From positions 77,263,763 through 77,327,762 of the forward strand of contig JARDYH010000007.1 in NCBI GenBank assembly GCA_029215795.1: 64,000 bases of DNA. Direction: 5' to 3'. A program made the position numbers and the translations under genes. The notes beneath the pieces were generated by a model. It had not been told where the DNA came from and searched no databases. It worked only from the letters and a program-made list of their open reading frames with translations. This document shows positions 11,341 through 53,445 of the stretch, in pieces (the stretch's first letter is position 1; every line of letters begins with the position of its first letter). This stretch comes from Anniella stebbinsi (taxonomy: Eukaryota; Chordata; Lepidosauria; Squamata; Anniellidae).

Positions 11341-11695
11341 GGTCCCCTCTACAAGGATTCACTTTTGCGCCTGGTTAGGCGATTATGCGCATAATTGCTG
11401 AAGCGCATTTACGCTTAATCCCTCTGCACGAGAGGCGGCGAGAGGCGGCGAAGCGCATTAACAGATGTCCAAAATGCGCTTTACAAGTAGTTAATGCGCA
11501 TAAGCGCTTATTCACACAGTCAAAATGCGCTTTAACGGACGGAGCAAAATAAAACTCGCGATTTAACGCGCATTCGATAATGCGCATAACTGGAGAGAGA
11601 ACGCACCTCTACGCCCGATTTGCGCTCCGTTCTTGTAGAGGTAATTTTTTTAATGCGCCTTGAAAGAGCTTTAAATGCCTTTTGTAGAGGCACCC
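11341..11695 (+). mobile_element. 355-bp inverted-repeat element, family A copy 1
   Basis: It begins GGTCCCCTCTACAAG and ends CTTTTGTAGAGGCACCC, and is flanked by GAA at 11338-11340 and 11696-11698. The interior is CpG-rich with repeated atgcgcat motifs and no transposase. Near-identical to the copies at 20050 and 53091, so it inserted recently. Confidence 0.88.
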
Positions 11696-11883
11696 GAATC
11701 CTCATATTTGCTCCCAGTCGCCTGGGCAGGGGGGGTAAACAGAAGTAGCAGTGTGAGTGAGTATAGGCGAGCAGGAGAGAAGTTCAGCATCCCTCCCTCC
11801 CACCTGTTGATCCTCCCCTGCAAATGCCCCCCACCCACTAAACACATGACCCTTCACTGGCCCAGGTGTGCTTGATCCCCAAA

Positions 11884-12066
11884 GGGCCCTTTCCGCACAC
11901 GCAGGTTTGTCGCTTGATGAAGTATGGCGCCTCGAGTCGCTCGCATGTGCGAACTGGGTCCCAGAGATTTAACAGCCTGGCGGGTTCCCCGCTCATCTCA
12001 ACGGCCAGCGCTTTTCAGCGCCGTGAGCTTACATCTCGTGACCTGCGGGCGCGTGTGGACAAAGCC
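11884..12066. mobile_element. 183-bp CpG-rich inverted-repeat element, AAA duplication
   Basis: The left end GGGCCCTTTCCGCACACG and the right end cgcgtgtggacaaagcc are imperfect inverted repeats. AAA flanks both sides (11881-11883, 12067-12069). CpG density is far above the surroundings. The GGGCC start and 3-bp duplication resemble family A. Confidence 0.6.
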
Positions 12067-12617
12067 AAAGAGGAGTGTTCCAAGACGGGGGGGCAGTGGC
12101 CGATGCTGTGCTAGGTGGGACAGAAGACTTCCAGCAGAGCAGCACCTAAGCCTTTTGCGCCAGATGCACGGAGGAAGAAGGAGAGGAGGTGCAGGCGCGG
12201 GTCTGCTAGGGACAGCAACGGCTTCCAAATTCAGTCTGCTGACTCAGCCTGCTGATTGTGAAAGCAGAGGGCAGTCCCCGTGGCTCCGTGGCAGAGTCCC
12301 CGCTGGTCCCTTTGCCCAAGCAATTGAAGAGTGAGGTAGCAGAAATAAAGGAATGCTCTCCCGATGTGTTGGGGTGCTGAGCGAAGGAGACTCAAAATCC
12401 CAGCGAGGGGGAGCAATGCAGCCCACACGGAGACCTCAAGCTCTTAGTTCAAGTAACGCATGGAAGGCCCCTCTGGGAAAGCGAGGCCCCAGGAAGTGCT
12501 CCTGCCTCGGTCTGGGCGACGTTTGGATGGAGGAGGTGGTGAAGCATCTTTGCTCTGATCCATCCCAGCTGGAGTTTGCGCATCTGGATCTTGCTAGCCT
12601 TGACGTCCGAGGAGCCG

Positions 12618-12655
12618 GGTGGTGGTGGTGGTGGTGGTGGTGGTGGTGGTGGTGG
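12618..12655 (+). repeat. (GGT)n microsatellite
   Basis: About 12 GGT units. It produces artefactual poly-Gly, poly-Trp, poly-Val, poly-His and poly-Thr reading frames. Confidence 0.95.
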
Positions 12656-12699
12656 CTCGCAGTCGAGGAAGGAAGCAAGGCCATGGGCACGGGGGATCC

Positions 12700-12792
12700 C
12701 ATGGACAGCCGGTTGGCCACTGTGTGCAAAAAGAATGCGGGATGAGATGGACCCTTGGTCTGATCCAGCAGGGCTCTTCTGATGTTCTCATG
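12700..12792 (+). repeat. CR1 LINE 3' tail
   Basis: Contains ggttggccactgtgtg and gagatggacccttggtctgatcc, ending gggctcttctgatgttctc. This is the 3' end seen in the longer CR1 copies at 14543 and 50463. Confidence 0.75.
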
Positions 12793-12906
12793 AGTCAAGG
12801 AGAGGAGGGCAGCTTCCTCAGCACACAGGCTGCAGAGGGGGAGATGGGTGCCTACAGTGTGGGTTTCATTTTATTGCTTGTGTCCTGGGCTCAGGCAAAT
12901 GTTCTT

Positions 12907-13098
12907 TTACGAGTGGCCAAACCACTGCAGTACAGGCGGAGGTGGGGGTGGAGATGTGGCTGATGTGAAGCAGTGGCTTCCTCTGGCCGAACGATCCCTT
13001 CTGGAGCTGCGTCTCAGGGAGGGCTTGCGGAACTGGGACTTGTGGCATCCAGGTTCCGTGTAAACTGCTTTCAAAAGGCAGAGCAGCCAAAATCCACG
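12907..13098 (-). other. candidate LUZP1 terminal exon, version A
   Basis: After an AG acceptor (attctccgttgcttAG) at 13099-13100 there is a phase-0 frame of 63 codons ending in TAA at 12907-12909. It includes an Arg/Ser/Lys-rich run (RKPSLRRSSRRDRSARG) and a Pro stretch. The large LUZP1 exon also ends in phase 0, so the join is possible. I cannot recognise the peptide as the mammalian LUZP1 C-terminus, so this is only a candidate. Confidence 0.22.
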
Positions 13099-14312: not shown

Positions 14313-14542
14313 GCCATCCTGTGTAAAAGCCAGCTCAGAAGTGATACAGTCAGTGCTGTCTCAGATACGTATGGGGTGAGATGGCTTGTTTAAAAAGAGC
14401 CACACACCAAACTCTCCCCATGGCAAAATGACCATGGCAGGGCCCAACATTTTAACCTGGGGTTGCTTTTCAACAAATTCCTTATGCACGCACACACCTT
14501 CCTGCCAGTGCATAGCTAAGATGGTACAGTCCTGCAGGAACT

Positions 14543-14946
14543 TTCTCCCTCTCCCATAATACTAGAACACGGGGCCATCCCATGAAGCTGATTGGTGGGC
14601 AATTCAGGACAGATAAAAGGAAGGACTTCTTCACACAGTTAAACTATGGAATCCGCTACCACAAGATGTAGTGATGGCTACAAATTTGGATGGCTTTAAA
14701 AGGGGGTTGGATAAATTCCTGGAGGAGAAGGCTATCAGTGGCTACTAGTCCTGATGGCTAGCAATATCAGAGGCAGTAAGACTGTATACACTAATTGTTG
14801 GGGAACATGGGCGGGAGGGTGCTGTTGCACCATGTCCTGCTTGTGGTTCCCTGGTCAACAGCTGGTTGGCCACTGTGTGAACAGAGTGCTGGGCTAGATG
14901 GCCCCTTGGTCTGATCCAGCAGGGCTCTTCTGGTGTTCTTATGTTC
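14543..14946 (+). repeat. CR1 LINE 3' region
   Basis: A 400-bp non-coding 3' end of a CR1-clade LINE: ctcccataatactagaac, cacacagttaaactatggaa, ggctttaaaagggggttgg, ggggaacatgggcgggagg, tctgatccagcagggctcttc, ending ttcttatgttcc. Plus orientation. Confidence 0.85.
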
Positions 14947-17139: not shown

Positions 17140-17888
17140 ATGCTGTCCATTAACCAGCGTACCCATTCCTATTGTTCCTTGTGCATAAGCACAAGGGATA
17201 ACCTGGCTTCAGTTGTCCATGGTCTGGTAACCTCCAAGTTAGATTACTGCAATGCACTCTACGTGGGGCTGCCTTTGAAGGTGGTTCGGAAGCTGCAGCT
17301 TGTGCAAAATGCAGCGGCCAGTTTGATAACTGGAACCAGAAGGTTCGAGCATATAAGACCTACTCTGGCCCGCTTGCACTGGCTGCCTGTATGTTTCCGA
17401 GCCCGATTCAAAGTGCTGGTTTTAAACTATAAAGCCTTACACGGCTTGGGACCACAATATCTGACGGAACGCCTTTCCCGACATGAACCTACCCAAACAC
17501 TACGTTCAACATCTAAGGCCTTCCTCCGAATGCCTACTCCGAGGGAAGCTCGGAGGTCAGCAACAAGGGAGAGGGCCTTCTCTGTGGTGGCCCCCCAATT
17601 GTGGAACGATCTCCCTGACGAGGCCCGCCTAGCGCCAACATTGTTATCTTTTCGGCGCCAGGTCAAGACTTTCCTCTTCTCTCAGACATTTGGCAATATC
17701 TGAGGAGCCTGGGTTTGTTTTTTGTTTTTTGAGCTTTTTTGGGTTGTTGTAGCAGTTTTAAATGTATGTGTGTATTGTGTGTATGTTGTATGTTTTTGCT
17801 GTTTTAATTTTTGTATATTTTTTAAATTGTTTTAATCCTATGTAAACCGCCCAGAGAGCTTCGTCTATGGGGCAGTATACAAATGTAA

Positions 17889-19316: not shown

Positions 19317-20049
19317 GGCTCAAACGAACAACTCAGCAGAGAATCATGAGCTAAAGGCAAGCAATGCACCAACTTTACTGTAGCTAGGCAGGAGTATAGT
19401 CAGGATGCCTTGATTGGAAAACTACCTCGAGGTCCATGGAAGGTGAGCTATAAATGGGATAAACAAAAACTCTCCAGTAGCTAATAGCGAGTGCAGGGCC
19501 TGTTCAAATACTGGATCTTATGCTCATGACGCCCGCTGTTAAAGAGACAGGCTAGCTGAGCACTGTCCTACCGAGCTATGTAATATCCTTGCAGCTGGAT
19601 CATCAAATGGCTATTCGTGGATTGTATTGGTACAACTGATCTATTTTCTAGTATAATTTTAATTTGCAGGTGTTCTCCTTAAAAGTTGCATGACTGCGAC
19701 CTCAGCTTTGTTGTGCTGTGTTCAATCATGATTCTGCCATTATCATTACTTCTGTCTCAAGACTTGCAAAAGACTAATTTTTGATCCTGCCCGGCCTTTT
19801 GGTCTATGTTTTTTGACGTAGGAGAGTCTGCTCTTGTTGTTTGGACATGGCTGCTGTCAGCAGGCATTTATGTTTGTGAAATGTCTGTGCAGCTTTAGGG
19901 AAATGTCTGTTAGGGAATAACAACAACCGTGTCTTACCTGTGACAGTATTGGGGCAATGGAAGGAGTTGTTTAGAAGAGTCACAGGATATTTATAGTGCA
20001 GGTTGAAAAGAGTGTGGGCAGGCAGGAGTACCTATTTGGGTGTGACAAG

Positions 20050-20404
20050 GGTCCCCTCTACAAGGATTCGCTTTTGCGCCCGGTTAGGCGATTATGCGCA
20101 TAATCGCTGAAGCGCATTTACACCTAATACCTCTGCACGAGAGGCAGCGAGAGGCGGCGAAGCGCATTAAAGGATGTCCAAAATGCGGTTTACAAGTAGT
20201 TAATGCGCATAAGCGCATATTCACACAGTCAAAATGCGCTTTAACGGACGGAGCAAAATAAAACTCGCGATTTAACGCACATTCGATAATGCGCATAATC
20301 GGAGAGATAACGCGCCTCTACGCCCCATTTGCGCTCCGCTGGTGTGGAGGTAAATTTTTTAATGAGACTTCAAAGAGCATTAAACCTCTCGTGAAGAGGC
20401 ACCC
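20050..20404 (+). mobile_element. 355-bp inverted-repeat element, family A copy 2
   Basis: Starts GGTCCCCTCTACAAG and ends GAAGAGGCACCC, with AAG at 20047-20049 and 20405-20407. Same orientation and length as copy 1. The two differ at a small number of sites, several of them CpG-type changes. Confidence 0.88.
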
Positions 20405-20531
20405 AAGGACTTCCTGCCTCTCTGTATTCTAGATTTAAAATGCTAAAAAAGTATAAGAAAGGATTAAAATTTCTGTCTCGCTGAAACTCTTCCATAGCAT
20501 TCTGACACTATCCTATTAGCACTGTCTAGCC

Positions 20532-22600: not shown

Positions 22601-23704
22601 ACAATAATCTCCACCGAGTGATTTTGCTAAGTGCTCAAAATGTCCCCATGCACCTTATCTCAACAGTTCTTAGAAAGCCCTTTGATCCAGCATCTGATGC
22701 CCACACAGGGCCTCCGGTGGAAATCTAGCACAACATGGATCCTACCACCCAGAGGTCTCATTTCCAATGCAGTTTTGGAGCAAGTACAAAATGACAGTGG
22801 TCCCTTCAGAGCAGCACGAGTAACTCCTGCTATCTCTTACCTCCTCACAGCCACTCAAATGAGAGAAGCCCCCACCCCTCTCTCTTACGCCCACTGAAGC
22901 CAGAGAATGCCGAGGAGGGTATTGGTGGCTATGATGTATAATGGCTGGCTGCTACTAAGCCAAGCCCACATTTGTGAACCCGTCCATAAGGTACTTTATC
23001 TTCCACTGTCTGATGTTTTCAAAACCTTTGCAAGCTGCCTTCTAAAGAGTCATGCCAAAAGGCAGAGTGTAAATATATTAACACAGCAATCATGCCTCAC
23101 ATTCAAGGCACGCAGGGTGATGGTGTGAGGTCTGCAGGCACGGGGAATTGCCATTTCCAATGTTCTGCCATTTGGCTGCAACCAGGATGGGACCGCGAGG
23201 GAGCCTTTTCTCCTCCCCTCCCACTGACTGCAATGGGAGGGCCATAACTGGTGTTGGGTTGTTTCTTTGGGCATATTGGGCGGGGGGGGGGGGGGAAATC
23301 CTGGCAAATCCACATCTGCCAATGATGCCTCCAACATGCCCAGATAGTCCCTACACTTCTAGCAAGACATCTACCTGCAGAGCTTGTACCAAGAGACTTC
23401 TAACGGCATAGATGCTGCCCTGCTGGCAGAACTCCCTCTCTCCTGGCAGGGTAGTACTTATGCATCTTCCTAAATTCCCTAATCCTAGAGTTTAGGATAG
23501 CTTCAAAATAAATAAACAAACAAATAAGCCAGTATTATCCTTATCATGTATGAACGAGCTACAACTGAGAAAGGTTGTAACTTTTTCCAAATGCACGTGC
23601 TGACATCCTCAAAAAGTCATCTCCTCTTTGATGTAAAAGAAGAAGCCCCCCCCCCTTGATTTAACAATACAAACGTTTTAAAATAAAATGCAGAACACGC
23701 TTAC

Positions 23705-26700
23705 TGGTAATACTGTGCAATTCCAAGGAGAAGCTGTCACTGGATCACTGACGCAACTCTTCTGGCTGAGCATCTCAGAAGCACCTAAGCTACTTTTGGT
23801 CCTTCTAGAGTCTGATTCTGGCGCAATCCAGGAGTTTATGCCAGCACTGGCCCTTCTGGAACTCTGCTCAATCGCATAAATGCGTGCACTAGTTCCTTCC
23901 GGTTTGGAAGGGTCCGTAGATGACCTATACGGACTCCGAGAGGTTGCGTTTTCAACCACCTTGTTTGCAGAGTCATCCAAAGATAGCAAACCCCGCCTCG
24001 TTCGCCACCCGCTTCTCACTGTGACGTGTTTGGTCTCAGATGAGTTTGTCTCTGAAGAGCCATGGCTCTTCCAGTTGATTGTCTCTACGTGTGGTTCGCT
24101 GTTCCTCTCAATGGATTCAGAAGATTTTATCATAATGCTGCTTTTGGAGATTACTGTGTCCACCCTGCTTCTCAGAACGGAGTCCCCGTTTTTATCAGCC
24201 TCAGGTAACTTCATGGATATATTGCTCTTGTTAATTGAAATCTCGTAAGGTGTGCTAGTTGCGTTCACGCCTGATGAGCTCTCGTGTGGAGTGACCCTAA
24301 TATTGCTGGCGGACACGTGTTGCTGTTCCTTTGGAGCTTCACTTGTGCTGGTCCTTGGAGAAACTGGCTCAGATGGGTAAATAGTGATACTACTTGTCAT
24401 CTTGTGAGACACAGTCTTAAGGACGGGGTGCTGTTTATCAGAGCTGGCTTCTGGCCCTGAGCCTGTGCCACCCATGATTTCCTTCACGTCCTTTTCCACA
24501 ATCGCAGGCTTGATGACTGCTTTAGATCTCAAGGCTTCCCTCGGACTGAATGGCCTTCTGGATTTCAACCCTGTGAGGACGGGAGCTGAAGATGTTCTGG
24601 ATGACCTGCCAAGCTCTTCTTCGCTGCAAGTATTTTTCTCATTTTCAAAGGGAGACGTTCGAACAGCTCCCCTGGAGCTTATGAATTCCCTGGAAAGAGG
24701 TTCCTTTTTTATCCCTAAATCAAGAGTGGTAGGAGTGGCTGCGATTTTGCTTGCCTCTTCGTTAGTACTGAGTTTTTCATAGCTACTGGGATTGAAAGCT
24801 TTGGCTCTCGCAGAAGTGGTCTTTACGGCCATGTTGTTAGAGTTTGCAGCTGAGGCAGTGGTCTGATCAACTTCTTCCTTCCGAGGGACTGGGTGACTCT
24901 GCAAGAGATCTTCCTGACTTCTTGAAATGAGCCTAGACTTTGATAAAGGTGAGGCCTTTGCCATTTCAAGCGGAGCTTCAATAAACTCTCTTTCTTGAGA
25001 GTTCACTATCTTTGGGGAGCTCTCTTCCAAGTGCTGTCTGCGGGATGAGGTCTCCGTCTTTAAGCCGGTGGGCTCAGTGATTAATACTTCTGCAGAAAGA
25101 TAATGCCTATAGGACGAAGCAGCTCCATTGGATGGCCCACGGTTTGTTTTTGAGATGCGAGCCCCTGTCGAAAGAGCAGGCGATTCTGCAGTGTTCTGCG
25201 TCTTAGTTCCCTTTTCAGAAGATGACGGAGCCATTTCTGCTTTGCTGGGCTTGAGTTCGAGTTCATCGGACTTACAGTGATGAGTGTCGTTAAAAGGTTG
25301 GCACACTTTTTCAACTTTGCCCCTCAACGCGCTCTCGTTCTTGGGTTTTGAAGAGGCCTTCCAAGACTTGTGCTCCTGCGCTGCGGGTGGATAGCGGCTA
25401 AGCACGGATGGCTGCTCACGAGTTTTTTTCACTTCTGCTGGAAGGGTAACACCATCTCTCTGTGAGGAAATGTGCACACCAGTGCTTGGTTTGTCTTCCG
25501 TCCGTTTAGCCTCAGTTGCTAAGGAGTCTAATAAAGCTGACGTACTACAAGCTTTGGCTGCCCTCCGGTTCAAGTTAGGGCTTGTCACCCGCTTGCTACC
25601 TTGGCCGTAGCTCTCATTATTAAATGAGAATTCTCGGCTGCGTATCCTCTCCCGTCTGTGCTGAGGAGAAAGCTCCCGAGACTTATGCTTTGAAACTGCT
25701 GACTCAGCTGTGACCGCTCGGTGTTTAGGTCTGTCATGCTTCGCTCGGCTGGGCAAGTTAATTTCCTCCGTTTCTGCCTCGCCGTTCTCCAGCTCTTTCT
25801 GCGTCATCATCTGCGTTTTTATTTCTTCAAGCTGGCCTGTGAGGAGCTTGTTTTTATTCTGCTCACTCAAGTAGCTATCGTGCAGGTCATTATTTTTGGC
25901 TCTCAGAGTTTTCAGTTCTTCTTCTAAAGACTCAAAATGTTTGATCTGGGTCTTCAGCTTCTCGATTTCTTGGTTGAGGTCCTTCACTTTGTTGTCCTCT
26001 TGATTTTTATTCTTCTGGTTTTCCGATTTGTTTCGGGTTTCGTTTTCTGCAAGCTTCAGATAGTCGAGACTCCCTTTCCGTCGGGTTTCTTTCGAAGACG
26101 GTGCCGAAGTGGTCACGTCAACTTCGATCCTCAGGTCGTTTCTCTCAAGGATACTATTGGATGATCTTTCCAGCAGGTTTGACGTGTTTCGGGTTTGATC
26201 AGCCCGGTTCAGCTTGTTATTTTGCTCCAGCTTTTGTGTCAGCTCTTGGATCAACTTCTCGTTCTGCTTCTCCTTTTCAGTGAAGTGTTTCCTTTCGCTA
26301 ACAAAGGCGAGAGCCAAAGATTTCATTTTTTCCAGCTCGCTCACTAAACTCAGCTCGGTTTTATCCAGCCGGTCTTCCGACTGTTCGAGTTCTTTGACTT
26401 TTGCCCTCAGAACTTCCAGTTCCTTCGAGATCTTCGTGGTCAGGTTTTTCTCCTCGTTGAGACTGAGGCACAGCTGCGTACAGTCATTCTTACTCCGGCC
26501 AAAGGCCTCCTCCAGCTTTTCGAGCTCCGCCATTCGCTTCTGGAGCCGCTCGATTTCGGATTTCAGCTCCCGAGTGAGGCTCTCCTCTTCCTCAAGCTTC
26601 TCCTTCATCAGATGGCAGAGCTCTTCCGCTTTCCTGATCTCCTCGTCCTTCCCTTCGATTTTCAGAACTCGCTTCCGCAGGGCTTCCACGTCTGCCAACA

Positions 26701-26878
26701 TGCTGGAGTTGCTGCCTTCCGCCTGGATAACTTTGTCCTGCAGGTCAAGCAGCTCATCTTCAGCTTTTTGGAGGTTTTTGGTGGCCTCCTCTAGTTCATC
26801 AAGGCGGCGGCCGAGACTCTGAAGCTTGAAGCGCAAATGACGATTCGAGGTCTCTTTATAAGCTGAATAATCCGCCAT
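23705..26878 (-). CDS. LUZP1: LUZP1 main coding exon (leucine zipper protein 1), residues 1-1058
   Basis: LUZP1 is a coiled-coil actin-associated protein of stress fibres, centrosome and cilium base, reported to bind filamin and restrain ciliogenesis. One exon encodes MADYSAYKETSNRHLRFKLQ onward. Residues about 10-365 form a near-continuous Glu/Lys/Leu-rich coiled coil with the leucine zippers (RLDELEEATKNLQKAEDELL, ERLQKRMAELEKLEEAF). The rest is Ser-rich and disordered. It has conserved islands at about 400-415 (RELSPQHRRER), 488-510 (REQPSVLSRYPPAAQEH), 770-800 (RPFSPREALRS, EKDVKEIMGG) and 822-840 (SSITIYPSEPVSPR). The start is the ATG at 26876-26878 (aaagATGG context), which aligns with the mammalian N-terminus. 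Three codons upstream is another in-frame ATG, in predicted UTR. The exon ends after WNCTVLP with a GTAAGC donor (23704-23699), phase 0. Human LUZP1 is 1076 residues, so little C-terminus is missing. No stop or frameshift. Confidence 0.95.
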
Positions 26879-26989
26879 CTTTGACACCTGGAGTTTACGT
26901 TCCCTATTCTTCAGATGGAGGCAAGGAATTTTGTAAATGCTTTATTCTTTTCCTCGTTTCATCAAGTTTCTCGGGGAGAGGACTGGTAC
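26879..26989 (-). other. LUZP1: LUZP1 5' UTR part of the main exon
   Basis: On the minus strand a strong acceptor (ctttctgctttctgttttcAG) ends at 26990, so the exon starts at 26989 and carries 111 bases of 5' UTR before the ATG. Further 5' non-coding exons must lie upstream at higher coordinates. Confidence 0.75.
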
Positions 26990-27733
26990 CTGAAAACAGA
27001 AAGCAGAAAGTGAGTATAATGGACAAAAAAGTCGTCTTCCCTGTTACTTTTCCTTTCAAGAGCTGTGAACATAAGAATATAAGAAGAGCCACGCTGGATT
27101 AGCTGTCAAGTCTGGACATACAGAGAATTTCCCCTTCCTCAGGATGTGCCGGAACTTAGGTATCTTTCAGGGACGTGGCAAAGTTCTGGGGGGGGGGGGG
27201 TTGGGGGGGGTGAGTTAAAACTTTCAGAAACCAAGATTAAAGTAGCAGAGGGTTGGGGTTTAATTATTCTTTTATTTGGATTTTATCCAAATAACCCTCA
27301 GTCTATACATGCTGTGGAGCAAGGTGGAAGAATGCTGAAGTACTACAATTTTTTAATACTCCTCTGTGCAAAAACTCCCTGAAAGTAGAACACTAGCGCA
27401 CTGGGGAGAAAAAGTATTTTCCAGTCCTCTCCCTGGTGTTTTAGTTTTCTACTTGCAAGGATGTGTGTCGTTGTTGTTTCATGTAGGGGAGCATTCTATC
27501 AACCACCCCAGCATTCTACCACCAAATTCTGCTGCATCTGCAGACCCGGCCTCCAGTCTGACAAAACCATAGCAGCACTGCCGTCTGTGGGGTACAACAG
27601 TTAAACAAATCACACATGCAGAAAAAAGCACAAACTCTACCATTGCACCACTTGCGATTTTTTCCCAGGCACTCAAGCACACATTCAAGGGAATAGAGTT
27701 GGTTCACACATTACCCTAAACCATGGTAATTTG

Positions 27734-27860
27734 TGGCCCTCCAAGTGTTTTGCCCTACAACTCCCACCATCCCTCGCCACTGACTGTACTAGCTAGGCCT
27801 GATGGGAGTTGTAAGCCAAAACATCTGGAGGGCTGCAAGTTGCCCACCTCTGATTTAGGG
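27734..27860. repeat. palindromic MITE
   Basis: tggccctccaagtgttttg faces caaaacatctggagggctgc around ctacaactcccacc and gatgggagttgta. Same family as 52694-52829. Confidence 0.65.
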
Positions 27861-28169: not shown

Positions 28170-28262
28170 CCTGGAGATGCCAGGGATTGAACCTAGGACC
28201 TCCTGTATGCAAAGCAGGTGCTATACCACTCTGCCTCCACTCTACCACTTCAGTGCTTTACC
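28170..28262 (-). repeat. tRNA-derived SINE fragment
   Basis: ctggagatgccagggattg, aacctaggacctcctg, gcaaagcaggtgctatacc. This is the antisense of the tRNA-like head (B box gaacctrggac) shared with 7717 and 55880. Confidence 0.65.
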
Positions 28263-30168: not shown

Positions 30169-30396
30169 CTAACACCTGCCAGAAAGTGTGCAAGCAGCCT
30201 TTGGCACCAGCTGAAGCTCCCGGGTCATCCTCAAGGGGAGCCCCATGTAAAACGTGTTGCAGTAATCAAGTCTCAAATTTACAGAAACATGGACCAGTGT
30301 GCAGCACAGTCTGCCCTGTCCAGAAAAGAGAAAAGCCTCTGAAACAGCCAAAGATGGGGGTGGGGTGGGGGTGGAAATGCTCCTGAATACAACTAC

Positions 30397-30752
30397 GGCC
30401 TCATCTACAAGAATTCAGCTTTATGCCTGGTTAGCCGATTATGCGCATATTCGCAGAAGTGCTTTATCGTAAATGCTTGTATGCAGGAGGTAATTGAGCA
30501 CTCAACAGGTGACTTTACCGGTTGTTTGAAATGCGCTTTACAAGTAGTTAATGCGGAGAATCGCTTGTTCACATAGTCAAAATGCGCTTTAACAGCCGGA
30601 GCAAAATAAAACTCGCTATTTAACGTGCATTCGATAATGCGCATAATCGGAGAGAAAACGCGCCTCTACGCCCGATTTGCGCTCCGTTCTTGTAGAGGTA
30701 AATTTTTTAATGCACCTTGAAAGAGCTTTAAATGCCTCTTGTAGAGGCAGCC
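30397..30752 (+). mobile_element. 356-bp inverted-repeat element, family A copy 3
   Basis: Starts GGCCTCATCTACAAG and ends CTTGTAGAGGCAGCC, with TAC at 30394-30396 and 30753-30755. More diverged than copies 1, 2 and 5, with internal indels, but with the same overall length and order of motifs. Confidence 0.85.
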
Positions 30753-33525: not shown

Positions 33526-33701
33526 CATAGCAGAGGCAGTAAGTTTATGGACACCAGTTTGCTGGGGAACATGGGTGGGACAGTGCTGTGGCATTTGTGT
33601 CCTGCTTGTGGGTTCCTGGTCAACAGCTGGTGTGTGAACAGAATGCTGGACTGGATGGATGCTGGGTCTGATCCAGCAGGGCTCTTCTTATGCTCATATG
33701 A
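33526..33701 (+). repeat. CR1 LINE 3' tail
   Basis: gctggggaacatgggtggg, tcctgcttgtgggttcctgg, tctgatccagcagggctctt, ending cttatgctcatatg. Confidence 0.8.
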
Positions 33702-34812: not shown

Positions 34813-36286
34813 TCGCTTTCTCGCTTGTGGCAGTTTTTCTAGACGAACGTGATGGGCTTTGCCAAGTCATGCTGTCTTTTATTGATTCAGGAATTTCCTG
34901 ACGATTGAGCATGTTTTAATTATGACTGCTTTCTGGATGTTGGTGTGGATTTATTCTGATAGGCCCAGTTTCTGTAGGTTTTCTGTATATTTTTTTGATG
35001 TGGTGCTGGTGACTGATGTGACTAAAGGGATAATTGTGACCTTTTTCTGTTGCAATAGTTCTTTGACTTCCATGACCAGTGGTGTATATTTGTCTCTCTT
35101 TTCTTCTTCCTTTTCAACAACATTTTTGTCATTCGGTATTGCTATGTCGATGAGGTATGTGTGTTTTTCTTTTTTGTCTATGAACGTTATGTCTGGATGG
35201 TTGCAAGGTATTGTCTTGTCTGTATGAATTGTTCTGTCTCAGTATATTTTATGATCTGCATTTTCCAGGATTGTTTCAGGTGAATATGTATAGTATGGTG
35301 TAGATTGTTTGATAAGGTTGAATTTGATGGCCAGTTGTTGGTGAATTATTTTTGCATATAATTTTGTCCATATAATCCATTCTTGCCAGAATTTTACATC
35401 CTCCTGTTATATGGTCTATTGTTTCTTGGAACTGATTGCATTTCCTACATAGGTCTGTTGTTACACTGTTATCTTTTATGATGTATTTTTGGTAGTTCTT
35501 GGTTGCTATAACTTGATCCTGGATAGCTATTAGGAATCCTTCTGTTTCTGGAAATAGCTCACCCTTCCTGAGCCATTCGAACGATTGTTCTTTGTTTATT
35601 TATGGGTTCTGTATTATGTTGTAGTGCTTCCCACAGAGTGCTTTTTGTGCCCATTTTTCTTCTTTCTCTGCGAGTGTAAGTGGTTGTGTTTGATCTTCAT
35701 TTTGTAGTGCTAGGTTGAGTGGGGTGTAGTTTTTATCTGCTTTTACTATGGCTTTATGAATGGGGGTGTTTTTGGTGTGGAAGAATTCCCTGAGTGATTT
35801 TATCTGTTTAGCATGAATTCTGTTAATATCCAGCAGACCTCTTCCTCCTTCTTTCCTGCTGATTGTTATTCTTTCAATGCATGAGTTGGGATGGAGCATG
35901 TGGTGTTTTGTGAATTCGGTGCAATTGAGTCTGTTTATTTCTTCAAGTTCAGTGTGTGACCAGTGCATGATTCCAAATGAGTATGTGAGGATGGGTATTG
36001 CGTAGGTGTTGATGGCTTTGAAAATGTTTTTAGAGTTGAGTTTAGATTTTAGGATTTGTGATAGGTGAATTTTATATTGCATTCTTAGTTGAGTTTTTAC
36101 TGTGGAGTGATTGATTTTTGTGTTTTGTTGGAATCCTAGGTATTTGTATGTTTCATTTTCTTCCATGGTATCTAATATTTTGTAATTTAGTGTTTCTGAT
36201 GTTGCTTCTTCTTTCCATTTTCCTCTTTCTATGTGTAGCATCTTGCATTTTCCTATCCCAAATTCCATTTCCATGTCTGTCGTCAG
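34813..36286 (-). pseudogene. R4/Dong-like LINE, C-terminal half, degraded
   Basis: On the minus strand an open stretch (36274 to 35600) carries the end of a reverse transcriptase and thumb: FGIGKCKMLHIERGKW, YKYLGF, INTYAIPILTYSFGIM and RKEGGRGLLDI. One in-frame TAA follows. The same frame then gives a CCHC-like knuckle (LCRKCNQFQETIDHITGGCK, about 35475-35410). A frameshift and a TGA follow. A PD-(D/E)XK-type endonuclease segment comes next (PDITFIDKKE...YLIDIAIPND, about 35200-35125). The knuckle followed by a restriction-like endonuclease is typical of R4/Dong and R2-type LINEs rather than APE-type ones. It is 5'-truncated before the catalytic YADD motif. The clade is inferred from motif order. 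Confidence 0.75.
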
Positions 36287-38315: not shown

Positions 38316-39836
38316 ACCCACCCACCCAGGCCACAACCTGTGGGACGATCCAATTTTAAAATAACCAAACATTTTAAGGGGTTGGGAACGGTGACTATAA
38401 CTGCCCAAAGGATCGCATTTAGTTTGCTTGCAAGCTAAATTGGACCCTTTCAGTTCTCTGTAACAGCTACAGATGCTGTTTTTCCCCTTTAAAAATATTT
38501 GTTGTGGGGGCTGGCTCAAATTCAGCAGGCAGTGGGGGTGGCAGTAGAGGCCGCCTGCTGCCCACCCCTGTTGGAGCGAGGGTGTCAAAAAACGCAGATT
38601 CCAGGCCTCGCTTTCCTTTTTGCCCAACATGAGCGCCTTGCCTTCTGACACCCACAGTAGGCAGTTGACTCTGAACTGGGAGCAAAGGACAGTCAGAGGG
38701 GACAGGCAAGGCAAGTTATGATTTGCACATCAGGAAACCCTGCCTTCCGAGTTAATCAGAAATGACAGATACCCCACCCATTCCAGCGAGACACTGACTC
38801 ACGGCTAGGCACCTCACCAGGCAAATACCCCTGTGTGATTTCACTGGAATTGCACTTCAGCTAGGGAGCAGACCAAAAATCGTGAGCTGCGGCCAGCAAG
38901 GAAACTGCTGAATCCTTGACACTTTATGGCTATGTGCGCTCTCCGGAACTTGGTCGCTTGGCTCACGGCATTCCACGCTCTGGTTATTGTTCTTAGACTT
39001 CCTCATGGCATTCGAATGCCTATGAGGAAAACAATGCCAGGTCCCTGCAATTCAGCTTGAGGAGATGCAAAACTGAGCTAAGGGCTCAATGACTGGGGCG
39101 ACGCAGACCCACAAGAGTGGTTCACACGACCGTTGCCAGCGCCACACGGGGGAGATCCACAAAGGAATGTGTGCAAACGTTACCTCTGGCGCAACTGATC
39201 TTTGGCTTGGCACTGCCGGGCTGGGTTCTTTTGACTTGCCTGTGAACTAACCAAACAGAAATACGGAATTTGGTATCTGGAGCAAAAGCCGACATCCTGA
39301 AACATTCAGCTTTCATATTTGTTGCTTTGTTTGGTTTCTCCAAAAAGCGGGCTTCTAGCCGGTGCCGTCACTGCTATGCCAACTGCTATGCCGATTCTAT
39401 GACTCCTCCCTCACCCATCCTGGGACCATCAAAGGCGCATATTAAGAATAGCTGCAGACTTTAAAGGGTCCCACTGCTGAAATCCAAAGTCTTCACTACT
39501 CAGACTGCTCCTACCAAGCAGCTATCTTGCCTAATCAAAAACAAAACCCCAAACCTAACATTGTCCACTGTCACGTCTCCAATTTTCTCCTAACCTGCCC
39601 GCAGTATTCAGTGCCTGAATGTGCTGTACTGTGTTAGGCTGCAAGCACAGGGCCAATGAGGACCTGCAAGGGAGCCCTCCCTGAAACTCCAATATCTGGG
39701 TTTTCATCTTGAAAGCGTATGCAATTATTCCATACTAAAAAGGAAACATCATGTGATTTAATGTCATTTTAATAAATTGTCAATGTAATTTGTTTTTGCG
39801 TCCCATCCGGGTTGTGCACAGGGCAGGCGCCCTTAG

Positions 39837-40190
39837 GGCCCCCTCTACAAGAATTCAGTTTGGCGCCTGGTTGTCCAATTATGCGCATCTTCTCACAATT
39901 ACTGTTACGATAATGACTGTACGCGGGAGGCGGTTAAGTGCGTAACTGGTGGCCCAACTGGTTGTTTGAAACGCGCTTTAAAGTGGCTGAAATGCAGAGA
40001 ATCGTTTGTTTACATGGTCAAAATGTGCTTTAACCGCAGAGCAGGAAAACTCACTATTTAACACGCAATCGATAATGCGCATAATCGGAGAGAAAACACG
40101 CCTCTACCCCCGATTTGCGCTCCACTCTTGTAGAGGTAAAAATTTTAATGAGACCTGAAAGAGCTCTAAACCTCTCATGTAGAGGCGCCC
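39837..40190 (+). mobile_element. 354-bp inverted-repeat element, family A copy 4
   Basis: Starts GGCCCCCTCTACAAG and ends CATGTAGAGGCGCCC, with TAG at 39834-39836 and 40191-40193. This is the most diverged copy: many atgcgcat motifs have decayed to TG/CA variants. Confidence 0.85.
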
Positions 40191-40302
40191 TAGGTCCCAA
40201 TTGTGCATGCCACTGGATCGAATGGTGCACTCCAACTTTTCCTGGACTGAACCACTTCAGGCTGCAGATGAGGAGCTCCATGTTTGAACGCTCCTCCATG
40301 GG

Positions 40303-40740: not shown

Positions 40741-40936
40741 GAGCACAAAAGGTGGAGTACTGCTAATAACCCCTGTGACACCTACTAGTTTAAAAACCCA
40801 TGGCCTACTTTATCAGTGTTTATAAACTCTGACTAATCGGAATGGAAGTTAGCCATCAAGAGCCGAAGCGGACACCTAATCTATTGTTCCAGTCTCACTG
40901 CTCATTAGCAAGTAATTTTTAAAAATTGCTCTAAGC

Positions 40937-41071
40937 CAGGGGTGGGCCGAAAGTAGATCTCCAGATGTTTTGGATTTCAACCCTTAGCATTCCCGACCAT
41001 TGGCCATGCTGGCAGGGGTTTCTGGGAATTGAAATTCAGAACATGTGGAGATCAACCTTCTGCCCATCCCT
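40937..41071. repeat. short hAT-like MITE
   Basis: caggggtgggccgaaagtag and caaccttctgcccatccct ends. The centre is a fold of ccagatgttttggatttcaa and ttgaaattcagaacatgtgg. Flanks ctctaagc and ctctagga are similar. Confidence 0.65.
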
Positions 41072-41304
41072 CTCTAGGACATCCCTCCTCAACATGGTAC
41101 CTGCTAGATGAGTTGAACTGCAACCCCCATCAACCCCTGCCAACATGGCCAGGTACATAAACAGGAATTGGGACATCCTCACCACAAATGCTTTCTTGTC
41201 ACCCCCTCCATTGCCTTTGTTGCCCCATGGCGGTTGGGGGCTTCAAGATGAGAGAAGGGACATCAAGGTAAGGAAAGAAAGTGCCCCCATCCTCAGCTTG
41301 GCAG

Positions 41305-41467
41305 TAAGCCTATATACACCAGTTGCTGGGGAACATGGGTGGGAGGGTGCTGTCACACTCCTGTCCTGCTTGTGGGTCCCTGATCGTCAGCTGGTTGGCC
41401 ACTGTGTGAACAGAGTGCTGGACTAGATGGACCCTTGGTCTGATCCAACAGGGCTCTTATGTTCTTA
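41305..41467 (+). repeat. CR1 LINE 3' tail
   Basis: gtaagcctatatacaccagt, ggggaacatgggtgggaggg, gaccсttggtctgatccaac, ending ttatgttctta directly at the start of a SINE. Confidence 0.8.
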
Positions 41468-41672: not shown

Positions 41673-41770
41673 ACTATGGAAGAATTGGAAGCATATGGCT
41701 ATCGTGAAGTAGCAGAGCCAGGGAAACTGCAGTAGAGAGGTGGCTTCTGAACGTTTGCACGTCTTAACTG

Positions 41771-41905
41771 AGGGATGGGCAGAAAACAGGTTTCCAGATG
41801 TTTGGGATTTCATCTCACAGCATTCCGACCATTGGCCATGCTGGCAGGGGTTTCTGGGAATTGAATTCCAAAACACCTGGAGATCTACCTTCTGCCTTCT
41901 CCTGC
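41771..41905. repeat. short hAT-like MITE with 8-bp duplication
   Basis: Same family as 40937. Flanked by cttaactg (41763-41770) and cttagctg (41906-41913), 7 of 8 matching, which supports hAT. Confidence 0.7.
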
Positions 41906-43094
41906 CTTAGCTGATGAAAGGAGGAGCGCAAAAGTATTTACAGTCTATAAAACAGGGCGGTTAGTGCAGGGCTGTTGTTTGCTTCTCTTGCAAGGTGACC
42001 ACAGCTTCAGCCTGCCTTAGCACTGCAAATGATAGCTGCGCTTCTCATCAAAATTATTGTTTCCTGGTTTTGTTCTTCCTGCAGTGTCTGCTTTGCTAAA
42101 AAAAAAAAAAATGACTGTTTTAAGTGCCGCTCGTGTGTTTATGCAATTCAAAGTTGAGAAAAGGACACAACAATATTTCTTTTTCGAGGTCGAAATACTT
42201 CTTTGGGGAGATAGATGGGGGAGGGAGATGAATTCATGGAGGCACCAGTGCCGTCCCAAATGCACTAATGCACAGCTGGCTTCTGTCTGCAAACTAGCTC
42301 AACTGGTTTTCCTTGAGCTCGATCCTCAGGAGAAGATTTAATATCTGAACAAAACACAGTGAGCATACCTTCATGGTAGCTCTCCTGTTCAAGTGGAATT
42401 TATCTGCACCAGGGCTGCAGGAAGTGTGGCCCATGTATCACATGCGGCCCGCCAAGTCTTTCCTAGTGGCCTGACAGATGGCCCTGCATCTGCCACTTCC
42501 ACAGTACCATCTAGGGTTTCTTGTGCTAGCAAGGGAATCCCTTCCTTATCTCCAATCCTGCTGGCAATAGCAAGAGAAAACCCAAGGATTCCCTTGCCAG
42601 CAGTAATGCTAGCATGGAAACCATCAGTCTTGGGTCTGCGTTTGTGTGTCTGCAAGCACACATGCACAGCTGCGGCCCCCTGACGCAGCCCCCCGGAGCA
42701 AAAACAAAAAACCAAGCTTGTGCACCCTTGATCTACACCAATTGTGCAGCTCACCCTGCTCTGGGGAATCAAAACAGACAGCCTACTCAGTTGAAAAAAA
42801 TATGTGATCAAAGCGTTTCCATCCCAGTCATGGATTAGCCAGTTACATTACTCTTTACCTTTGCGAGCTTGGAAAAAAATACTTTCTATCCATGGTCTCA
42901 AACTAGAAAGCCATTACAAAGATGACAATGCAAACGGCCTTTGCCTCCAAGCCGTCAAAAGCAAAATGATTCCGCTCTGCGCTTCCATCTTCCCTTACAG
43001 CCCCCTTACAGCGTTTGCTGCACCGTCAAAGATAGTCGTGATCAAAACTAGATGGCTGATGCCATCCTGCATTTCGGCCAAAGACTGACTCTGT

Positions 43095-43699: not shown

Positions 43700-44492
43700 T
43701 CTGAAATTTCATGTTGGGGATCATTAGGAAAGGAATCCAAGATAAAACCGCCAATATCAAAATGGTTTTATACAAATCTATGGTGGGACCACACACGGAA
43801 TACTGTGTATAGTTCTGGTCATCGCACCTTGAAAAGGATATTATAGCACTGGAAAAGGCGCGGAAAAGGCTAGCCAAAATAATAAAGGGGTTGGAGCAAC
43901 TCCCCTATCAGGAAAGGTTACAACGTTTGGGGCTTTTAGCTTAGAAAAAATGAAAGGGACATGATAGAAGTGTATAAAATAAACATGTATAAAAAATCAT
44001 GTTTTGGAGAAATTGGATAGGGAGAAAGGTCTCTCTCTCTCTCTCAATTTTTATTATGTTGTATTCTGTATTTTTATGAATTGTTGTAAACTGCCCAGAG
44101 AGCTTTGGCTATGGGATGGGATGGAAGTCATCATCATCATCATCGAACCATGAAGCTGAATGGCAGGAGATTCAGGACAGGGAGAAGGAAGGACTTCTTC
44201 ACACAGCACATCTTCAAACTATGGAATTGGCTACCACAAGCTGTAGTGATGGTCACCAACTTGGACAGCATTTAAAGGGGATTAGAGGAATTCAAAAAAG
44301 ATAAGGTTGTCGATGGCTATGAGTCATGATGGTTATATATTACCTCCAGTATCAGCGCCTGTAGGGCGGGGTGCTACCGCACTCATGTTCCCCATTGGGG
44401 GTATCTGGTTGACTACTGCGGGAACAGAACGCTGGACTGGATGGGCCTTTCAGCTGATCCAACAGGGCTCTTCTTATACTCTTAAATACAGG
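43700..44492 (+). pseudogene. CR1 LINE ORF2 end and 3' region with an L2 tail inside
   Basis: Bases 43780-43940 decode in shifting frames to the CR1 ORF2 C-terminus (LEKDIIALEKARKRLAKIIK, then GLEQLPYQERLQRLGLL) with stops. The 3' region follows: ccatgaagctgaatggcagg, cttggacagcatttaaaggg, ctgatccaacagggctcttc. A foreign L2-type tail (gtaaactgcccagagagct) with an ATC run interrupts it at about 44044-44146. Confidence 0.75.
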
Positions 44493-47499: not shown

Positions 47500-48020
47500 T
47501 ATTCACACAACATGCTAATGTAGGCTGACCAGATAAAATCCAGGTCAGGGCTCATATAACTTTAACAGTTGTGGAGAAAAGGGAATTTCAGCCAGTGTCA
47601 TTTGTATGCAATTAGTTCCTGGTGATATTCCCTCTTCATCACAACAGTTAAAGTTGCAGGGGCCCTGCTTTCTTTTGTATCTAGTCACTCTAGTATAGTG
47701 AATGCACCTTTAACTGTTGTGATGAAGAGGGAATATCATCAGGAACTAAATGCATACAAATGACACTGGCTGAAATTCCCTTTTCTCCACAACTGTTAAA
47801 GTTATATGAGCCCTGACCTGGATTTTATCTGGTCACCCTATGCTAATGCACATTCAGTGGCTTGAGTGTGGGTTGTTTTGAACCGTGGGGGGTTTGTTGA
47901 ACATGGGTTATCATGCTGTCTGAATGCTTCCAGGGTGACTTGTTAACCATGCAGTGTAGTTTATCATCTTGAACAAGCAACCTTGAGAACCCATGGATTA
48001 TTGCTGGGTTAGCTGAAGAT
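47500..48020. mobile_element. inverted-repeat element carrying a nested fold-back
   Basis: ttcacacaacatgctaatg (left) joins cacattcagtggcttgagtg after the nested element is removed. The body matches the families at 4710 and 29138 (gagtgtgggttg, cttgttaaccatgcagtg). Right end approximate. Confidence 0.6.
47521..47840. mobile_element. 320-bp fold-back hAT-like element with perfect 8-bp duplication
   Basis: Ends TAGGCTGACCAGATAAAATC and gattttatctggtcacccta fit the hAT 5'-YARNG rule. TGCTAATG is present at 47513-47520 and 47841-47848. Almost the whole element is two arms of about 130 bp (47521-47653 and 47708-47840) around a loop of about 55 bp. Confidence 0.88.
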
Positions 48021-48057
48021 GGGCCTTTAAGTACCCAGATCCCAAGCTTTATAGTTA

Positions 48058-49837: not shown

Positions 49838-50460
49838 GCTTGGTGTAGTGGCTACACAGTGGCTGCATTCGGACAACACATTAGTCAATGGTGGGTTGAG
49901 TAGCCAACTCACAGTTGGTTATTTTGTGGGTACTCCCCACACAACATATTCCTACACAACTGTGAGTGGTTGGGGCTGGCGTTGAGTGGACTAATAGTCA
50001 ACCCAGCATTTGACTGACACAGCCCCCACCCTCCCTCCTCCCTCAATCCTCCCAGTTCTATCCCAGCAGCCTTTGCAAGTTGCACCATTTGTAGCAGAGT
50101 GGCAGCCGTCGCTCTATGGGCTTGTGTTTTAACCCACTCACCCCTCCACACAACACTTTAAACAACTGGCTTTCAGCTAAACTACTTGCAAGCCAGTTGT
50201 TTCTCTCAGTTGCTTATTTGGGCGGAACAGCATACCGTCAGTAGTTTGTGAGCGGCGTGTTACCCTCCACACAACACAATAAGCAACACAACTGATGATT
50301 GTTCCCCCCCCCCCCCCGGTTGCTTAATGTGTTGCCCAAAACCAGCCTGTGTCGGACCGGGAGTGGGGAGATCCAGGTTCAAATCCCTGCTCGGCCATGA
50401 AGATCACTGCCTGTGATGTTGGAGTGGTCAACTCTTTTTCTCTCTTAACCTAACCTGCCA
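49838..50460 (+). repeat. Sauria-type SINE split by a DNA element
   Basis: cagcttggtgtagtggctac (49836-49855) continues after 50347 with gtcggaccgggagtggggag, tccaggttcaaatccctgct and tctctcttaacctaacctgc, then a CR1 copy begins. Confidence 0.75.
49861..50347. mobile_element. 487-bp inverted-repeat element inserted in a SINE
   Basis: Starts GGCTGCATTCGGACAACAC and ends gtgttgcccaaaaccagcc. Flanking triplets are AGT and TGT (one mismatch). A run of 14 C at 50304-50317 lies after gatgattgtt, exactly as in 4743-4970. Non-coding. Confidence 0.78.
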
Positions 50461-50462
50461 CA

Positions 50463-50880
50463 CTTTTCTCCTTCTCCTACAATGCTAGAACCCGAGGTCA
50501 TCCCATGAAGCTGATTGTTGGGAGACTCAGGACAAATGTAAGGAAGTACTCATTCGCACTGCGCATAGTTAAACTATGAAATTCACTACCACAAGATGTG
50601 GTGATGGCCACCAATTTGGATGGCTTTAAAAGGGGGTTGGATAAATTCCTGGAGGAGAAGGCTATCCATGGCTACTAGCCCTGATGGCTATGTGCTACCT
50701 CCAGTATCTGAGACAGTAAGCCTGGATGCACCAGTTGCTGGGGAACATGGATGGAAGGGTGCACCATGTCCTGCTTTGTTGGTCCCTGACCGACAGCTGT
50801 TTGGCCACCGTGTGAACTGTGTGCTGGACTAGATGGACCCTCGGTTTGATCCAGCATGGCTCTTCTTATGTTCTTATGTG
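50463..50880 (+). repeat. CR1 LINE 3' region
   Basis: ctcctacaatgctagaaccc to catggctcttcttatgttct. A 3' end of about 415 bp in the sense orientation. Confidence 0.85.
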
Positions 50881-52097
50881 ATAAATAGCGTTGTGGGTGA
50901 GGAGTGCCTTTAATACCCTCCCAGTAGTCACCTTTGCAGGGCCACCGAGAGGCTTAATGGGGCAGGTGTGATGTTGGCGTCCTCCTGAATTGGCATCCTG
51001 GGCAATCACCCAGTGTGCCCACCCCTAAGGCCTGCTTGTGAGCATAAAGTAGGGAAGGCGACCATGGATATTACCCTGGGTTCCTTGGCAGAAGGGAGGA
51101 TTTAAAAACATAATAATGACTGAAACTGAACAAACAGCACAATATTTTGCTGTGGCTATTAAAATGAGATTGCAATTCATTAATGCCCAACAGTCCTTGG
51201 GAGAGAAATGGTATGAGCATTGTTTACAATGCAAAGTTGGTTGCTGGTATTATGTTATGTTTCTAATTATTCTCTTCATGGTTAGTTGGATCGTATATAT
51301 GTTCTTTTTCACGTTTTAATTTAGCCTGGTTTTATTATTTGGCTTTAATATCTGTTTTTATGTACTAGATATGTGGAAAGTTCTATGGACTACTAAATAC
51401 ATTGGTTTGAATAATGATGTATTTTAAAAAGCAGCCTTGAGCTACGTGGAAAAAAGGTGGGATAAAAGTATAATATATCAATGCACTAAAATGTAAAAGA
51501 GCCATGAAGTTCTGAATATAACTAAACTGCTTTAGGGCATCCCTACACCTGCTAAGCCAGGATCAACCTGGTTTAGCTGTCTCAAATCTCAATCAAAGAG
51601 CTCTGGAAATTATAAGTTTTGCAAAGGATCTTAAGGAAGTCTCGACATCCCTGCAAGACTATAATTGCCAGGGTCCTTTGGAAAAAGTCATGACAGTGAG
51701 ACAGGATTCAAAGCAGCTGATGTAGTGCAGAGGTGTGCCACAGAGATGAAACAAGTTGCTTCCAAAAATAATAATTACTTTTCTCCTGATGTTTTGGCAT
51801 TCTTTCTTATTCCTAGATTTTTCATTCTGGTGCAGTGTTTATCCATGTAATACCAAAAAGCATTCTCACGGCGAGGGGGGAAAACTCACCCTGGCAGAAC
51901 CAGCTCTGAGCCCGTTAGTTTGAGGTTTTAATCAAATTTGCAACCCTCTCCAAGCAAAGATGGCACCAACCCTTCTCAGAGAACCTCACTCTTCTCATCT
52001 TGGATTCGCTTTGCCTCTTTCCAGGTTAGGCTGGCTCACTGGCTGGCATTCTCCCATGACATCAGGAGCCCATTTGGTGTAATTTTGACTTCACATG

Positions 52098-52179
52098 CCA
52101 CCTCAGGAGTAAAATACATCTACGAATGTACACAGTTCAAGTACTTCCCTTACTTCCACCTCAGGAGTAAAATACATCC
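52098..52179 (+). repeat. short direct repeat, 58-bp period
   Basis: ccacctcaggagtaaaatac with atc occurs at 52098 and again at 52156. Confidence 0.8.
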
Positions 52180-52693
52180 CTTACAAAATGTTATATGTTA
52201 TATTTGAAGGAGGGAGTGGGCTGGGGACAAGACCCCCCCCCCCGGGTCTGTGGTGTCTAAGCTGTGTCTTCTACATAAAAGTCACTTGTCTTGTGGCAGG
52301 CATTTGTTCCCATGTAACATCATGGTTTAGCGCTATGTGCATAGGAAGGAAGGAGGTAGCCACAAGCCTAAAGTTTGCATTCACACCTCTTCCCTTCTTC
52401 TCCCACATGGTCAGGAGGACCTTGGCTGTATTTAGTTTTCCTTTCAAAGGATCTAGGCTTTCCGTTGTATACAAACAAGAGATTAAAGTTTAAAACAAAC
52501 TCTGGTCAGTTTCAAAACAAGCCAACATCAAACCATGGATTATGAAACTGGAGTGTTAAACTAACCAGAGCTTGCTATAAACCACAATCTCTGGTTTATA
52601 TGCAACAACAGGCTGAGATTCTGTGAGAGCAAACCTAAATGCAGCCAAAGGGCACAAGCCCAAGGCTTTTGCTTGTGTCATGTCTTGCTAAAC

Positions 52694-52829
52694 CAGCCTT
52701 TCTTGACCTGGTGCCCTCTAAGTGTTTTGTACTACAATTCCCATCAGCTTGAGCCAGCATGACCGGTGGGCAGGAATGATGGGAGCTGTAATCAAAAACA
52801 TCTGGAGGGCACCAGGTTGGGAAAGGCTG
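52694..52829. mobile_element. 136-bp palindromic MITE with 8-bp duplication
   Basis: CAGCCTTTCTTGACCTGG and the mirrored ccaggttgggaaaggctg enclose ttttgtactacaattcccat and atgggagctgtaatcaaaa. Flanks tgctaaac and tgctaagc match at 7 of 8, so it behaves like a hAT element. Reference copy for the palindromic family in this window. Confidence 0.75.
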
Positions 52830-53090
52830 TGCTAAGCTATTGTTTAGTGTGACATGTGAACCAGTTAAGTGATGGACACAAATGTGTGAATTCTCCTTAG
52901 AATTCAGTAAATTCACCCTCACTTCCCTAATTTGCACCAAAACAAAAGTGGGGGGAGGGGAAAGGTGACCTACCTTCCAGGGATACTGTGTCATCAATCT
53001 CAATCTCTTGTTACAGGATGGTCTGTAAGTCTAAACAACATTCCTGACACTCCTTTGAGACAAACGCAGGGAACATCCTGTTCTCTCTGA

Positions 53091-53445
53091 TGGTGCCTCT
53101 ACAAGAGGCATTTAAAGCTCTTTCAAGGCGCATTAAAAAAATTACCTCTACAAGAACGGAGCGCAAATCGGGCGTAGAGGCGCATTATCTCCCCGATTAT
53201 GCGCATTATCGAATGCACGTTAAATCGCGAGCTCTATTTTGTTCCGTCCGTTAAAGCGCATTTTGACTGTGTGAATAAGCGCTTATGCGCATTAACTACT
53301 TGTAAAGCGCATTTTGGACATCTGTTAATGCGCTTCGCCGCCTCTCGCCGCCTCTCGTGCAGAGGGATTAGGCGTAAATGCGCTTCTGCGATTATGCGCA
53401 TAATCGCCTAACCAGGCGCAAAAGCGAATCCTTGTAGAGGGGACC
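53091..53445 (-). mobile_element. 355-bp inverted-repeat element, family A copy 5
   Basis: Opposite orientation to the others: tGGTGCCTCTACAAGAGG at the left, CTTGTAGAGGGGACC at the right, TGA at 53088-53090 and 53446-53448. Nearly identical to copy 1, with CpGs retained. Confidence 0.88.

Follow-up and report, generated by a model that had tools for sequence, protein, structure and literature searches.

The stretch analysed here, called the window throughout, comprises 64,000 nucleotides of the Anniella stebbinsi genome (assembly GCA_029215795.1, contig JARDYH010000007.1, forward strand, positions 77,263,763 to 77,327,762). It contains five copies of a short repeat, Family A, which is a Harbinger-derived miniature inverted-repeat transposable element (MITE). 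The copies are listed below, with 5′ and 3′ ends typed as A or B.

11341..11695, + strand: copy 1, 355 bp; ends A (5′) and A (3′); GAA duplicated at 11338-11340 and 11696-11698
20050..20404, + strand: copy 2, 355 bp; ends A (5′) and B (3′), a combination resembled by the long Harbinger L031; AAG duplicated at 20047-20049 and 20405-20407
30397..30752, + strand: copy 3, 356 bp; ends B (5′) and A (3′); TAC duplicated at 30394-30396 and 30753-30755
39837..40190, + strand: copy 4, 354 bp; ends B (5′) and B (3′); the copy that has diverged furthest; TAG duplicated at 39834-39836 and 40191-40193
53091..53445, − strand: copy 5, 355 bp, reversed; ends A (5′) and A (3′); TGA duplicated at 53088-53090 and 53446-53448

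The positions, lengths of 354-356 bp and matching triplets given for these copies in the initial annotation were all verified. Its description of them as non-autonomous inverted-repeat DNA transposons with 3-bp duplications holds, in a squamate, and so does its exclusion of hAT, Tc1 and piggyBac. With the ends held fixed, the flanks match over three bases in five of five copies and over four bases in none; triplets at the same spacing match with a frequency of 0.0187 in the window, which puts five of five by chance at about 2e-9. The terminal inverted repeats are short (~15-16 bp) and imperfect, the ends start GGTCCCC or GGCCCCC/GGCCTCA, and GG stands at both ends of every copy except for a single terminal base of copy 5, where T replaces G. 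TGCGC occurs 5-14 times within each copy, both strands counted. Pairwise identity is highest between copies 1 and 5 (95.5%) and lowest, at 73%, between copy 4 and copies 1, 2 and 5. A profile scan of the window gave no sixth full copy, no empty sites were found for the five window copies, and three open reading frames (ORFs) of the window had no Pfam match.

Genome searches were made in the host's own assembly (1.89 Gb). First-look candidates, unconfirmed and possibly overlapping, numbered 3067, 3352, 3411 and 7431 for copies 1, 2, 3 and 4, and the best 40 were scored for each, the window copy among them. The 39 other copies on each list, full length or a few bases short of it, showed identities of 96-97% (copy 1), 97-99% (copy 2), 95-97% (copy 3) and 91-94% (copy 4), and the four lists of 40 had no start coordinate in common, the comparison being by exact start alone. 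To tabulate duplications and derive the target motif, 49 copies were fetched, 20 of the 39 non-window matches to copy 1 and 29 of the 39 to copy 4; being best matches to these two copies, they are not a random sample. An exact 3-bp duplication was present in 30/49 with the ends as given by the search, and in 33/49 when the ends were allowed a shift of at most 3 bases onto GG/CC, a rule that prefers the matching triplet among equally good ends and so favours duplications. The remaining 16 copies have no exact duplication. With the window copies added under the movable-end rule, 37/54 were exact, 8/54 were one base off and 9/54 deviated more. Copy 5 belongs to the last group because of its altered terminal base; at the ends first assigned to it, it passes, giving 38/54. 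Four of the 54 copies (L049, L051, L053 and L068) lie inside other repeats, and uninterrupted relatives of these cross the junction, with at least one ungapped spanning alignment each, providing four empty sites.

The target preference was determined from the 37 copies with exact duplications. C at −1 or G at +3 of the triplet was found in 55/74 half-sites (binomial p 1e-20), the outer duplication bases were T/A in 38/74 half-sites (p 8e-6) and the triplet centre was A or T (W) in 29/37 copies (p 0.002), these p values being too small since the paired half-sites of one target are not independent. The commonest triplet was TAA/TTA (7/37). The targets are thus palindromic, with C-NNN-G strongly and TWA modestly preferred, a preference and not a rule. 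The window copies alone gave a mere hint of this motif (max-position p 0.07), and five triplets were too few for the TWA preference to be noticed in the initial annotation, which had concluded that a standard PIF/Harbinger target was not present. With the preferences seen over 37 copies that objection falls, and the longer element that shares these ends is itself a Harbinger. The target motif of maize PIF is taken to be CWCTTAGWG. Characterised PIF/Harbinger members show target preferences that reach past the 3 bp, according to PMC2836001.

The longer element with the same ends and a transposase, which the initial annotation had suggested looking for, was found. Searching the genome with PF13359, the Harbinger transposase domain, gave 1746 first-look, unconfirmed candidates; in the best 150 of these, 149 matches scored stop-free and one score was common to 127. 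One long element was read from end to end:

G000:C4:99494653-99505777: L031, long Harbinger, 11,125 bp, CTC duplication on both sides

The transposase of L031 lies in at least two ORFs, at 688-1329, without a Pfam match, and at 1453-2169, with DDE_Tnp_4 (PF13359) at 2.3e-35. The long element has two further, Myb/SANT-like ORFs, the first on the same strand as the transposase (L089 334-669) and the second towards the 3′ end, on the opposite strand (L093 2752-3270). Both contain Myb_DNA-bind_4 (PF13837), one at 5e-19 and the other at 2e-9, and the two proteins are 24% identical across 96 residues. The second Myb ORF gave 1774 first-look, unconfirmed candidates, of which the best 150 were scored. 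Combining the 150 scored transposase and 150 scored second-Myb matches yielded 115 pairs in which the Myb ORF lies 5.4-14.0 kb downstream on the opposite strand, as in L031, and two pairs in a different arrangement. The 3′ ends of long copies were located through the second-Myb matches; length alone predicted 0/5. Nine further long copies were tried and eight showed both ends, five of these with an exact 3-bp duplication, L038 being without the expected 5′ end. Together with L031, the nine copies seen at both ends measure 9.2-11.7 kb and carry an exact 3-bp duplication in 6/9. L037 and L038 share their 3′ flank, so some long copies may be segmental duplicates and not separate insertions. Other Harbinger lineages (L009, L010, L011, L016, L019, L020 and L021) are ~70-73% identical to L031 in the transposase region.

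Among the 120 of 414 protein matches listed, the closest named relative of the transposase is an Elgaria protein (59%), with geckos, further lizards and turtles behind it, most of them at 43-59%. Because transposons are often masked in gene annotation, the 59% top match does not show that the transposase is absent from Elgaria.

Repeats and MITE copies were also seen in and around the long elements. Within the long Harbinger (L091, L093), tandem units of ~148 bp resemble a repeat in the flanks of L068, and the same L068-flank repeat matches a ~320-bp repeat of the window (47520-47840) that has matches in both orientations. Family A copies lie beside or inside Harbinger copies at L026 2246-2595 and L029 2424-2781.

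Both ends of the MITE match the ends of the long element, as illustrated by copy 1:

11341..11460, + strand: 5′ end module, the first 120 bp of copy 1; matches L031 13-132 (82.5%) and Harbinger copy L029 (91% over 124 bp)
11513..11690, + strand: 3′ end module, positions 173-350 of copy 1; matches the long Harbinger 3′ end (h1 10955-11132, 78.7%)

At the 5′ side, the first 120 bp of L031 were matched by copies 1, 2 and 5 at 82.5-85% (E down to 3e-35) and by copy 4 over its first 51 bp only, and nothing above threshold was obtained for copy 3. At the 3′ side, the last ~187 bp of L031 (h1 10951-11132) were matched by all five copies at 78-83% (E down to 9e-49), from position 170/176 to position 349/351 of the copies. 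A match beginning at bases 1-3 of copy 1 was present in 18 of the 30 Harbinger loci fetched, and sixteen 5′ ends from fifteen loci were displayed. The closest Harbinger locus at the 5′ end is L029, which over 120-124 bp is 94% identical to copy 2 and 93.5% identical to copy 5. Since both ends match, the MITE consists of two Harbinger ends with the middle gone.

Taken together, Family A is best explained, with a probability of about 95%, as an internal-deletion PIF/Harbinger MITE moved in trans into palindromic C-NNN-G targets. An internal deletion of a PIF/Harbinger transposon would have left ~120 bp of the 5′ end and at least ~180 bp of the 3′ end, which would retain the terminal repeats and the repeated TGCGC-containing motifs and leave no room for a transposase gene. 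The Harbinger transposase and a Myb/SANT-like partner, supplied by longer relatives in the same genome, would then excise the MITE in trans, and the excised copy would be pasted into a palindromic C-NNN-G target, with the central 3 bp duplicated and TWA mildly preferred. The features of PIF/Harbinger are present, namely a DDE_Tnp_4-type transposase, a Myb/SANT-like protein, the 3-bp duplication, a TWA/palindromic target preference and short G-starting terminal repeats, and Family A has the many copies of a short internal-deletion derivative of a coding element. The initial annotation could not name the family; the superfamily can now be assigned as PIF/Harbinger through the ends and transposase of L031. 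Family A is a putative new MITE family within a known class, and a coding relative of it was found.

Superfamilies other than PIF/Harbinger with 3-bp duplications exist, and the five window triplets are not TWA, as would suit a MITE of CACTA/Chapaev3, Zator or Academ that is merely Harbinger-like. It is hardly credible that Family A is such a MITE: the element matched by both of its ends codes for DDE_Tnp_4 and two Myb/SANT-like proteins and has its own 3-bp duplication, and the 115 transposase/Myb pairs argue against that element as a chance composite. CACT/CACTG ends are the signature of CACTA/Chapaev3, whereas Family A ends in GG. All three superfamilies were rejected on finding the Harbinger transposase, the ends being compared for CACTA alone.

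Several observations weigh against the derivation from PIF/Harbinger by internal deletion as set out above. A central stretch of about 50 bp in the MITE is without a clear match in L031. The youngest long elements have a slightly different end (GGCCCCCTCCACAAGG versus GGTCCCCTCTACAAGG) and are 82-85% like the MITEs, and so are not their direct parents. Copies 3 and 4 match the 5′ end of long elements over the first 51-69 bp only (copy 3 at 72-75%), so that no 5′ donor was found for them among the long elements. L031 is the sole long copy read through, the others being seen at their ends, and three of the nine long copies have no exact 3-bp duplication; neither have 16 of the 49 fetched MITE copies, even under movable ends. 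No Family A end was found within the 1.5-kb flanks of 7 of the 30 fetched Harbinger loci, which belong to other lineages. Three steps are our inference only, namely that the MITE is mobilised in trans, that the internal motifs are bound, and that ends were exchanged as described next.

The five copies represent four subfamilies, in which 5′ types A and B and 3′ types A and B occur in all four combinations. There are 39 close genome copies behind each of copies 1-4, with end types assigned from the window copies. Informative sites were defined as those with two states, both represented by two or more of the five copies. Of these 43 sites, 31 unite copies 3 and 4 (columns 3-224), 6 unite copies 2 and 4 (columns 294-342), and a further 6, also to be counted against the reading, agree with neither grouping. 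The clustering of the conflicting sites was equalled in 0/10,000 permutations. Read from the alignment, L031 pairs an A-like 5′ end with a B-like 3′ end, the same pairing as in copy 2. From the sequences, the mosaic suggests that ends were exchanged between co-resident lineages before amplification, possibly through recombination or a template switch. Without recombination, the mosaic could also stem from repeated mutation or from selection acting on the end sequences: the 3′ split is defined by only six sites, copies 2 and 4 could have retained an ancestral 3′ end, and the sites that fit neither grouping are equally many. Such an origin is unlikely, given the clean separation of the conflicting sites along the element, the type-A-like 5′ end paired with a type-B-like 3′ end in the long Harbinger, and the need for at least one exchange or repeated change to obtain all four combinations from shared ancestry.

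The recent burst is that of the long element. Over 2.3-3.5 kb, L014, L025, L028, L036 and L037 share 99.6-99.8% identity with L031, the rest of the L031 lineage is less alike (many at 91-99%), and 146 of the 150 second-Myb ORFs scored show 100% identity at the protein level. Median pairwise identity among the fetched MITE copies was 97.7% for the 20 from the copy-1 list and 93.8% for the 29 from the copy-4 list; being less alike than the long elements, the MITEs are older on the whole. The recent burst that the initial annotation had read from the density of Family A thus applies to the long relative and not to the five window copies, whose four subfamilies span 73-95.5%. One recent burst for all five was rejected on these subfamilies and the unequal identities. 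Two features stand out as most unusual, the long element with its three genes and the set of four end combinations. It is about an even proposition that they reflect a very recent, possibly current explosion, in a land vertebrate, of an unusually long Harbinger of 9-12 kb with internal tandem arrays and three genes (the transposase and two highly diverged Myb/SANT proteins, one per strand), accompanied by MITE satellites that swap 5′ and 3′ ends between co-resident lineages, every combination then amplifying.

The copies are rich in CpG, with observed/expected ratios of 1.0-1.5 compared with 0.35 for the window, and copy 1 gave RNA folding z scores of −4.5 and −3.1 on its two strands, with both sides changed and pairing kept in some sequence for 11 of 105 predicted pairs. 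These values would fit retention of the copies as CpG-rich regulatory or structured-RNA units, which is nevertheless very unlikely. Compared with other C/G sites, CpG sites change 6x faster in 20 type-A copies and 16x faster in 29 type-B copies, as in methylated, unprotected DNA, and on these rates retention as protected CpG islands was rejected. The fast decay indicates that CpG richness mirrors the source sequence and not protection. Folding also weakens with divergence (DNA z −4.8, −2.5 and −0.6 for copies 1, 3 and 4) and the covariation term is unfavourable (+3.16).

The nearest described system is Harbinger-Snek of sea kraits (Laticauda), a squamate Harbinger burst with short non-coding variants. 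According to PMC8437027, it likewise is a squamate PIF/Harbinger with a transposase, a Myb-like protein and an explosive recent expansion, accompanied by numerous short non-coding variants that share its ends and duplications, the likeness being one of description. It differs in that one Myb-like protein is described there, compared with two, 24% identical, in the anguid-like lizard studied here. The same paper has Harbingers unreported in solely terrestrial vertebrates, a statement qualified by the transposase matches in geckos and other lizards. Tourist-type MITEs of the mPing/Ping system are also short gene-free derivatives moved by PIF/Harbinger with a 3-bp duplication, and their target preference reaches ~3 bp to each side of it; the duplication there is usually TAA/TTA, compared with 7/37 in Family A, whose TWA preference is weaker (PMC2836001). 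In Medicago, long PIF/Harbinger members (2.2-25.3 kb) occur with short derivatives, short GG-starting terminal repeats and, in some, internal tandem repeats. These are plant elements with TTA/TAA duplications, and their G(N)5GTT end motif, a plant search criterion and not a superfamily definition (PMC2213677), is absent from Family A ends. Literature searches for squamate MITEs with 3-bp duplications and for Harbinger, Myb or MITE in lizard or gecko found none, a piece of the end sequence matched nothing relevant by title, and exact pattern scans of viral contigs gave no match.

A previously unnamed repeat family thereby receives a name and a transposase source, and the reason why five triplets misled is evident. 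The burst of near-identical long Harbingers in an anguid-like lizard bears on the terrestrial-vertebrate picture and on horizontal transfer, and more than 100 near-identical coding loci would be a natural basis on which to build a Harbinger transposition system for vertebrates. With four end combinations, MITE end exchange can be tested by counting.

The window also contains the following features. The second repeat family (~110-150 bp) occurs in at least 10 places, and many pairs match in both orientations, so that it is probably palindromic. Copies of the dispersed family are ~66-88% identical to one another, and the Family A insertion at L053 lies in a relative of it.

23678-26887, − strand: LUZP1 large exon/ORF; best named relative Elgaria multicarinata webbii, 91%, which places the host near Elgaria, probably as an anguid-like lizard
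27728-27860, 31892-32041, 40931-41072, 41765-41910, 52689-52837: second repeat family
54839-54983, 56672-56803, 57013-57150, 59370-59510, 62683-62829: second repeat family, further places
14531-14944, 33522-33702, 34161-34517, 41300-41467, 44148-44484, 50454-50879: dispersed 170-430 bp family
17140-17703, + strand, and 35600-36274, − strand: ORFs resembling remnants of long interspersed nuclear element (LINE) reverse transcriptase, no Pfam match
28172-28243, − strand: Rfam transfer RNA (tRNA) match, 35.9 bits; a tRNA gene or tRNA-derived repeat

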